A stretch of 41,365 nucleotides of DNA from Chloroflexota bacterium. Lineage in GTDB: Bacteria; Chloroflexota; Dehalococcoidia; UBA2247; RBG-13-53-26. Below, piece by piece: positions 8,521 to 10,550 of this stretch. Location of the stretch: positions 1-41,365 of the forward strand of contig JAPLHP010000036.1 in the NCBI GenBank assembly GCA_026389585.1. The letters are read 5' to 3'. The notes under the pieces were generated by a model. That model did not search any database. It was not told the origin of the DNA and saw only the letters and a list, made by a program, of their open reading frames with translations. A program made the position numbers and the translations under genes. Positions within the stretch are counted from its first letter, which is position 1. Each line of letters starts with the position of its first letter.

Positions 8521-8676
8521 CTAAGCGTCTCCCTGCTTCTTCTTCGGCTGGGGGGGAGCCAGGTCAGGAGGTACCGGGATCTTTCCCAGGCCACCACATA
8601 TAGAGCAAACCTCGCCCGCTATATGGCCCTTACCCTTGCAACCATAGCAGGTCATGTAGGTAATTTCCTCCGTCAT
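8521..8676 (-). CDS. Small double zinc-knuckle protein, 51 residues
   Basis: This short gene encodes MTCYGCKGKGH near its start and CSICGGLGK about ten residues later, so it has two CxxC(x)GxG knuckles like half of a DnaJ-type zinc finger. A Pro-rich then lysine-rich tail follows and ends KKKQGDA. The longest start is ATG 8676; an internal ATG at 8655 has GGAGG eleven bases upstream (8667–8671) and is a real alternative giving 44 residues. It lies 89 bases upstream of the CoA-transferase gene on the same strand. The conserved Cys spacing argues for a genuine gene. Its function is unknown. Confidence 0.6.
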   Translation of the reverse strand: MTEEITYMTCYGCKGKGHIAGEVCSICGGLGKIPVPPDLAPPQPKKKQGDA

Positions 8677-8762
8677 GATAGCATACCTAACAATGCGTTC
8701 TCTGAGATAAGAGAGTCCATTGCGACATTATATCACCCCGACCTCAGCCTGGATACAAACGA

Positions 8763-8799
8763 AGAAGGCCCATCCATGTGGATGGGCCTTCTCTTCAGC
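8763..8799 (-). terminator. Strong hairpin after the 26-residue gene
   Basis: A perfect 13-bp stem pairs 8763–8775 with 8780–8792 around a four-base loop. It starts about 20 bases after the stop of the minus-strand basic peptide gene. On the minus strand the stem is followed by TCGTTTGT, a weak T tract, so it may terminate or stabilise the small transcript. Confidence 0.6.
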
Positions 8800-8811
8800 C
8801 AATAACCTCTT

Positions 8812-8892
8812 CTACCTCTTGGTTTTCTTGGTCTTTGTAGCGGTTGCCTTGGCAGCAACCTTGGGTTTTCCTACCTTTGCCTTAGTAGCCAT
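8812..8892 (-). CDS. 26-residue lysine-rich basic peptide
   Basis: The minus-strand ATG at 8892 has a consensus AAGGAGGTG at 8901–8909 with an ideal eight-base spacer. The frame encodes MATKAKVGKPKVAAK followed by a Thr/Lys tail ending KKTKR, then TAG at 8812–8814. Nine of 26 residues are Lys and one is Arg; the rest are mainly Ala, Thr, Val and Gly. The composition resembles the C-terminal tail of histone H1-like or HU-extension proteins. A strong hairpin lies about 20 bases downstream. Perfect ribosome binding and a discrete terminator argue that it is expressed. Nucleic-acid binding is inferred only from charge. Confidence 0.6.
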   Translation of the reverse strand: MATKAKVGKPKVAAKATATKTKKTKR

Positions 8893-9287
8893 AGACTCCA
8901 CACCTCCTTCCGTTAGATGTGTTACACAACGGCTCAATTCTCCTCACTATCTCATGATTCGTAAAGCCCCAAATGGCCAAATATCATGAGCCAAAGCGCT
9001 CATATTCCAGGCTGATAACCTCATTGACTCTCACTGATACACCATTTATGGTCAGCGGTAGAGCGATTCTCATCTATTTGACTCGATACAATTGCTCTGC
9101 CATCAGAGTTCCGCCTCCTGATATCATGATCAAGGCTGAGTGTGGCCAAAACAGATGCGTCATCCCATTCACCAATGATGCAGCCGCCATAGCCACCTCT
9201 TGTCACCAGTCAAGCACTATCCGTGCGAGTAAGTCTATTTGACATGAGGCGCAGCCATCTTTAGAATGTGCTGAACAAGGAGGCCGT
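8893..9287. other. 395-base gap before the M16 peptidase
   Basis: The gap contains the Shine-Dalgarno of the minus-strand peptide gene at 8901–8909 and a strong plus-strand promoter at 9239–9267. A 61-codon minus frame at 9021–9206 has no recognisable domain or ribosome site. Nothing else is supported. Confidence 0.5.
9239..9267 (+). promoter_or_regulatory. Sigma-70-type promoter of the M16 peptidase
   Basis: TTGACA at 9239–9244 and TAGAAT at 9262–9267 are separated by exactly 17 bases. The start codon is 20 bases after the −10, giving a short leader. Confidence 0.75.
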
Positions 9288-10550
9288 GTGTATCAGAAAA
9301 GCGTTCTTGACAACAAGTTGAGAGTGGTAACGTCTAGCATGCCTCACACGCGTTCTGTGTCTGTGGGCGTGTTTATCGGTGCTGGTTCCCGTTACGAGAA
9401 GGCTGAACAGGCAGGGATATCCCACTTCATTGAGCATCTCTGCTTCAAAGGCACCGAGCGCAGACGCACGGCCAAAGAGATATCGGAGTCAATTGAAGGT
9501 GTTGGCGGATTGCTTAACGGCGGTACTGACAAGGAACTGACCATCTACTGGTGCAAGGTTGCCCGTACACATTTTTCACTGGCTGTAGATATCCTGGCCG
9601 ATATGCTGTCTTACTCCAGGTTTGATCCTGAAGAGATCGAGAAGGAGAGACAGGTAATTATCGAGGAGATCAACATGTGCCTCGATTCCCCTCAACAGCG
9701 GGTGGACTTGCTCATTGACGAAGTCATGTGGCCGAACCATCCCCTGGGGAGAGATATCGCTGGAACCAGGACCACGGTGGGCAAACTGATGCGGGAGGAT
9801 ATGCTCCGCCACTTTGACAGCCAGTATCTGGCCAACAATACAGTTGTGAGCGTTGCTGGTGACATCAGCCACCAGGAAGTGGTAGCCAGCATGGAAGAAA
9901 CCTTTGGACATTGGAAAAAGGGCATACGGCAGGAGTGGTATGCGGCTGACAGCCCACAGCAGGAGCCACGATTGCGAGTCGAGCGGCGCGACACAGAGCA
10001 GGCTCATTTTTGCCTCGCCCTGCCGGGCCTGTCACTCCAACATCCCGACCGATTCGCCTTAGACCTGCTCAATGCTGTGCTCGGTGAGGGCATGAGCAGC
10101 CGCCTCTTTCTGGAGATCAGGGAGAATAGAGGGCTGGCCTATGCCATCCACAGCTATGCAGACCACTTCCTGGATACAGGCGCGCTGATCGTCTATGCCG
10201 GGATTGACCCCAGACAACTTCCGGGCTGTGTCGAAGCAGTACTGGCAGAACTGAATCAACTGAAAAGGGAGGAGGTGCCCAAAGACGAGTTGAAGAAGGC
10301 AAAGGAATTCTGTAAGGGACGCCTGTTGCTGCGTATGGAGGATACGCGGAGCGTGTCTGGCTGGTTGGGGGGACAGGAGTTTTTGCTAGGGAATATTCTC
10401 ACCGTTGATGAGGTGGTATCCATAATCGACTCTATCCAGGTTGATGACATGATCCGGGTAGCCAGAGAACTGTTTGTGCCAGAGAGGCTTAACCTGGCGG
10501 TTGTTGGCCCTGTTGAAGAGAAGGACATCCAGGGGTTGCTCCACCTGTAG
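9288..10550 (+). CDS. M16 family zinc peptidase
   Basis: The 420-residue protein is a processing-peptidase/PqqL-type member of the pitrilysin family. The inverted zinc motif HFIEH is at 46–50, and the third ligand Glu lies in RQVIIEEINM near 126. The N-terminal peptidase domain is followed by the inactive homologous domain, including the NRGLAYAIHSY region near 280–290 typical of this family. The length matches single-chain bacterial M16 proteins such as the B. subtilis YmxG type. The GTG start at 9288 follows AAGGAGG at 9277–9283. It would act on peptides or misfolded small proteins in the cytoplasm; no signal peptide is seen. Confidence 0.9.
   Translation: MYQKSVLDNKLRVVTSSMPHTRSVSVGVFIGAGSRYEKAEQAGISHFIEHLCFKGTERRRTAKEISESIEGVGGLLNGGTDKELTIYWCKVARTHFSLAVDILADMLSYSRFDPEEIEKERQVIIEEINMCLDSPQQRVDLLIDEVMWPNHPLGRDIAGTRTTVGKLMREDMLRHFDSQYLANNTVVSVAGDISHQEVVASMEETFGHWKKGIRQEWYAADSPQQEPRLRVERRDTEQAHFCLALPGLSLQHPDRFALDLLNAVLGEGMSSRLFLEIRENRGLAYAIHSYADHFLDTGALIVYAGIDPRQLPGCVEAVLAELNQLKREEVPKDELKKAKEFCKGRLLLRMEDTRSVSGWLGGQEFLLGNILTVDEVVSIIDSIQVDDMIRVARELFVPERLNLAVVGPVEEKDIQGLLHL

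Follow-up and report, generated by a model that had tools for sequence, protein, structure and literature searches.

Several bacterial proteins have histone H1-like tails (AlgP and PhaF; Hc1/Hc2 and HU tails), which are disordered and composed of Lys, Ala, Pro, and Thr. In AlgP, the tail is joined to an N-terminal domain, KPAA-repeat peptides bind DNA in vitro, and the protein associates with polyphosphate granules (PMC9239181). The ribosomal proteins bS22, bL37, and bTHX are likewise short, highly basic, and often not annotated, but their sequences are conserved and their position on the rRNA is fixed. Very short frames preceded by a strong Shine-Dalgarno sequence are also found in bacterial minigenes, which involve peptidyl-tRNA drop-off and include the axe-txe minigene (PMC8708949). 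Genes of 7 to 30 codons fall below standard annotation limits.

We analyzed a 26-codon, lysine-rich frame in a stretch of 41,365 nucleotides (the window) from a Chloroflexota bacterium; the stretch is contig C36 of a draft genome of 1.93 Mb (G000). The encoded peptide and its homologue from a second genome (G001) are of the Lys/Ala/Pro-rich low complexity that characterizes AlgP-type H1-like proteins, and the G001 peptide resembles an H1 tail. The histone H1 likeness advanced in the original prediction therefore fits, as a matter of composition only, and the nucleoid or RNA binding that it derived from this likeness stays conjectural. The separate N-terminal helical domain of AlgP-type proteins is absent, the whole ORF being 26 aa. 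Unlike in the H1-like proteins, the 'tail' is here the entire protein, of 7 to 34 residues in the units described below, with its own transcription unit and no folded domain. The units share size, charge, and lack of annotation with bS22, bL37, and bTHX but are of low complexity, variable in length, and patchy in distribution. They differ from minigenes in having their own terminator, longer frames, and a constrained basic peptide. No description of such genes was found in the literature. We propose, with a probability of roughly 0.5, that the frame is a free-standing miniature polycation gene whose peptide acts by charge.

Organization of the locus

All elements of the unit are located on the minus strand. 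An extended Shine-Dalgarno sequence, AAGGAGGTG (8901..8909), retained in G001 as AAAGGAGGTGT, is separated by an 8-nt spacer, TGGAGTCT (8893-8900), from the ATG (at 8892) of a 26-codon ORF encoding MATKAKVGKPKVAAKATATKTKKTKR (8812..8892 including the TAG stop codon at 8814-8812), which has a homologue in G001. The peptide contains 9 Lys and 1 Arg, i.e. 10 basic residues, and neither Asp nor Glu (K+R of 38%, versus 41% in G001), the remainder consisting of A/T/V/P/G and the initiator Met. An intrinsic terminator (8762..8793) begins 18 nt past the stop codon, with a 14-bp stem (8793-8780 pairing with 8775-8762), a loop of 4, and then a T-rich tail. The minimum free energy of the hairpin is -30.6 kcal/mol (z of -4.9), a value equaled by none of 200 shuffles. 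The original prediction had listed the Shine-Dalgarno sequence, the 8-base spacer, the ATG frame of 26 codons with ten basic residues, and the stop, all of which are present; its hairpin of 13 bp at 20 bases after the stop was nearly exact, and its claim that all parts of a small transcription unit are assembled here is right and can be extended by a conserved promoter region. An upstream TTG at 8937 would open a 41-aa frame; the ATG at 8892 is preferred because both the Shine-Dalgarno sequence and the G001 homologue indicate this start.

The combination of signals was searched for in 300 second-order Markov windows of the same trinucleotide make-up, as GGAGG and ATG followed by 7-60 aa with at least 35% K/R and by a hairpin of -20 kcal/mol or lower. 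The mean was 0.003 per simulated window, against exactly 1 in the real window, and the combination with a hairpin of -25 kcal/mol or lower was never obtained in the 300 simulated windows.

The unit is flanked on one side by a divergent M16 peptidase gene, which is preceded by a strong promoter-like sequence, TTGACA-17-TAGAAT (9239-9267, plus strand). Downstream, a small zinc-ribbon frame is followed by a fused acetyl-CoA hydrolase/acetyltransferase gene. The zinc-ribbon frame (8521-8676, minus strand, likely start at 8655), located past the terminator, contains two CxxC pairs and seems to be a separate gene because a TATAAT is present upstream. It weakly resembles the center of DnaJ (17 bits) and scored 20 bits against anti-TRAP RtpA, far under the cut-off of 65.

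Promoter region

Two boxes were identified upstream from the unit, at a fixed distance from each other. Box 1, the 14-mer GAGCGCTTTGGCTC (8988..9001, minus strand), recurs with 0-1 changes at four sites, which are distributed over three genomes from the family. Box 2, GGCCATTTGGGGC (8966..8978, minus strand), abuts the -35 region and differs by one base ahead of the tiny gene of G001. It is followed on the same strand by a -35-like hexamer, TTTACG (8960..8965; TTYACS at all four sites), and, after a 17-nt spacer, by a -10-like hexamer, GAGAAT (8937..8942), with a predicted transcript start at about 8930. The -10-like hexamers of the four sites are GAGAAT, CACAAT, GATAAT, and CACAAT (NANAAT). 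About 45 bp of upstream sequence is thus common to G000 and G001 (GAGCGCTTTGGSTC, 9 nt, GGCCATTTGGGSC, TTTACG). The two-box pattern had no match in 1.2 Mb of shuffled sequence. Considered as bare sigma-70 hexamers, the window promoter is weak (8/12; 135 of 200 shuffles as good), and the case for a promoter therefore rests on conservation. Near-consensus promoters (11-12/12) are present ahead of the first G037 unit, the second G051 unit, and both G292 units, which belong to other families.

The two-box promoter is common to G000 and G001 although the neighboring genes differ, and the unit has therefore moved or its neighborhoods have been rearranged. Two further copies of the element were found ahead of other short frames, in G001 contig 54 (L151, G001:C54 near 1873) and in G008 (L148, G008:C220 near 1904); these frames have no significant Pfam match. 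The presence of the element at other short frames suggests a family-specific regulon, which the shared box would make definable.

A homologue in a second genus

A pattern consisting of the Shine-Dalgarno sequence and MATKAK, applied to 294 genomes of the class, identified the homologue in G001, a genome from the same family but another genus. The G001 unit comprises AAAGGAGGTGT, a 34-residue ORF, MATKAKTAKPKAKAVAKKAPKAKATKATAKKAKK, a stop codon, and a terminator of about -24 kcal/mol; the Shine-Dalgarno sequence and the N-terminus are the same as in the window unit. The layout of Shine-Dalgarno sequence, frame, and hairpin that the original prediction proposed to look for in relatives is therefore intact in this genome. 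The three other matches to the pattern (G292, G009, and G004) were GroES-like starts and unrelated.

A DNA search with the window unit in 60 relatives gave no significant match outside G000, and a protein search in the order matched only lysine-rich stretches within long frames, which were discarded. The shortness and low complexity of the peptide account for both searches being blank in the family. Strict patterns detected no further copy in G000 itself and placed the unit in only 2 of the 10 genomes of the family, a prevalence that is a lower bound owing to the strictness of the patterns. Distribution in the class looks patchy, with about seven families if weak cases are counted. This scattered occurrence in family and class indicates that the unit does not provide a core function. 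Synteny linked to M16 was considered and rejected: other genera have the M16 gene, but neither the hydrolase gene nor the 51-aa frame of the window was found in the surrounding stretches that were inspected.

Similar units in other families

A second pattern, requiring Lys at four positions, led to G070 and G114, members of another family, in which the unit comprises GGAGGTGATATCTACC, the ORF MAAKKKAAKKKKK, a stop codon, and a terminator with a T-run. A third pattern (GGAGG, ATGGC, and a basic end) added G037, G050, G051, and G292. The tiny basic ORFs encode MASKGKPSKPAAKPATKAPGKK and MASKGKPSGPAKPAPKK in G037, MAKPGKPGSKPAGKPGPKK and MAKPGKPGSKPPSGPKR in G051, and MKGAKGGKKK and MAFLKSKSGAKGGKKK in G292. 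Units of the other families thus have an extended Shine-Dalgarno sequence (in most cases GGAGGTGAT) ahead of a basic ORF that encodes 7-22 residues, and usually a strong terminator; in G050 and G382, some units have no strong terminator close by. Among the approximately 85 third-pattern matches listed, the carriers of GGAGGTGAT were the tiny basic ORFs of G037, G050, G051, G070, and G114, and this extended sequence emerged although the pattern required only GGAGG.

Matches in G262, G228, and G130 were dropped since they run on into longer proteins. G382 (MAKKPKPKPSGKPKPRGR, MQKKGKPKPK) and G171 lack a clear T-run terminator or lie within an operon, and G536 (MPMKKKKAKKSSKKK), from another class of the phylum, lacks a T-run terminator; all three were kept as weak candidates only. 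A phage origin was set aside, as the start region of G051/G070 had no match in viral contigs; the promoter boxes had none either (exact patterns only in both cases). In G341 and G275 (L144 and L145), a tiny ORF, MASSSRMSTAPSL(E/G)GLK, located after GGAGGTGAGAGCCT, is common to both genomes and is not lysine-rich.

Part of the similarity across families stems from the search patterns, Lys codons having been preselected. We infer homology, as opposed to convergence, for the units of the other families, a relationship that low complexity makes unprovable; the layout may also have arisen more than once. The presence of similar units of 7-34 residues in several distant relatives shows that this type of gene is genuine and has been overlooked.

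Tandem units

Tandem units are present in at least four genomes. The second copies were not selected by any pattern and were detected by a neighborhood scan (MASKGKPSKPAAKPATKAPGKK in G037, MAKPGKPGSKPPSGPKR in G051, MKGAKGGKKK in G292, and MKKKGKK in G114). The tandem pairs of G037, G051, and G292 were compared by Nei and Gojobori counting, with alignments by eye and few sites, giving 13 synonymous changes for 28.6 sites versus 13 nonsynonymous changes for 97.4 sites (Fisher p ~4e-4). A first pooled estimate (p 6e-6) was set aside as biased, since it included pairs found by Lys-codon patterns. The per-site excess of synonymous change within the tandem pairs suggests that the peptide is translated. 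Copies in other families thus differ mainly at synonymous sites, in the comparison that the original prediction had proposed; neither a broken frame nor a lack of protein constraint, which it had named as contrary observations, was seen, the G001 frame being intact and the tandem copies synonymous-biased.

Between G070 and G114, the main unit shows two ORF differences, both synonymous, and its terminator stem contains a compensatory change, from G-C to A-T. A GTG-start unit, MKKKKKK, with six Lys codons, is kept in both genomes with a Shine-Dalgarno sequence and a terminator, unlike the DNA between the units, which is not conserved. Up to three units (MKKKKKK, MKKKGKK, and MAAKKKAAKKKKK) are located inside 0.8 kb (L075 1966-2750, G114:C73; L074, G070:C7). 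In G037, a fluoride riboswitch (L108 803-890) lies about 3.5 kb upstream from the tandem units.

Proposed function and alternative explanations

We regard it as highly probable that the 26-codon frame is a translated gene. The promoter, whose two boxes upstream are probably the site of an activator, would drive a transcript of approximately 175-180 nt ending at the terminator. The near-perfect Shine-Dalgarno sequence would load ribosomes, leading to production of a 26-residue disordered polycation (+10, no acidic residue). Transcription and translation of the window unit are expected on this basis. The peptide would likely act by charge rather than fold, by binding DNA, rRNA, mRNA, or a polyanion such as polyphosphate, a function to which we give about even odds. 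Relatives retain the basic charge, the absence of acidic residues, a C-terminus that is basic, and strong signals for expression, while length (7-34 residues) and residue order drift, as charge-driven action would explain. DNA and polyphosphate are plausible partners because AlgP KPAA peptides bind the former and AlgP is found on granules of the latter; ribosomal RNA is another plausible one (PMC10618245). If they are translated, genes for such whole-protein polycations, each with a promoter and terminator of its own, would rank among the smallest stand-alone genes known; they would also offer a simple system for studying charge-only effects on the bacterial nucleoid, ribosome, or polyphosphate. 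More tentatively, genes for nothing but polycations of 7-34 residues, down to MKKKKKK, with their own Shine-Dalgarno sequence and terminator and sometimes in tandem, could form a previously unrecognized class-wide gene type, with products acting as dosage-tunable condensers of nucleic acid or polyphosphate.

The working product might instead be the RNA, regulatory or dual-function, with the short frame being secondary. A short transcript between promoter and terminator would suit this role, the full transcript of the window unit folds better than its shuffles (z of -3.5, largely due to the terminator), and hairpins are predicted ahead of the Shine-Dalgarno sequence in G037 and G051. The Shine-Dalgarno sequence is also partly paired in the predicted fold of many units (mean unpaired probability of 0.44 in the window unit and 0.03-0.2 in several others), which may allow RNA-level control or an RNA function. 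This reading is nevertheless rather unlikely in view of the synonymous bias between tandem copies and the retention of peptide character but not of RNA sequence. Rfam had no match at E<=1 in 8700-9300 and none at the gathering score in the whole window.

A lineage-specific small ribosomal protein occupying an rRNA pocket, like bS22, bL37, or bTHX, would fit the size, the charge, and the strong Shine-Dalgarno sequence, and non-annotated basic ribosomal proteins are still turning up by cryo-EM (PMC10618245). The K/A/T/P/G low complexity, the lack of a fixed length, and the failure to find a unit in most relatives make this improbable. No match, to these families or others, was obtained in Pfam with the 41-aa frame, in NCBIfam with three members, or in PDB with the G001 peptide.

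That the units are minigenes, in which a strong Shine-Dalgarno sequence and a short frame tie up ribosomes or tRNA-Lys by peptidyl-tRNA drop-off and the peptide is irrelevant, is conceivable for the extremely short MKKKKKK and MKKKGKK frames. Drop-off is a property of very short frames, however, whereas those described here reach 34 codons, and the synonymous bias also makes this explanation very improbable.

A lysine-rich leader peptide acting with an attenuator on a downstream gene would account for the leader-like order, in which a terminator follows a short frame dominated by a single amino acid, and in the window a 51-aa frame does lie downstream on the same strand. A co-directional gene after the terminator is not present at each locus: in G001, G070, G114, G050, and G037, the first large gene downstream is convergent, and the window has a separate TATAAT between the terminator and the next frame. 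Since the downstream neighbor at most loci is either convergent or served by a separate promoter, the unit is hardly tenable as a cis-acting leader. Although 26 codons is short, a chance frame beside a terminator has a next to negligible likelihood in the face of the simulation, the G001 homologue, and the shared promoter.
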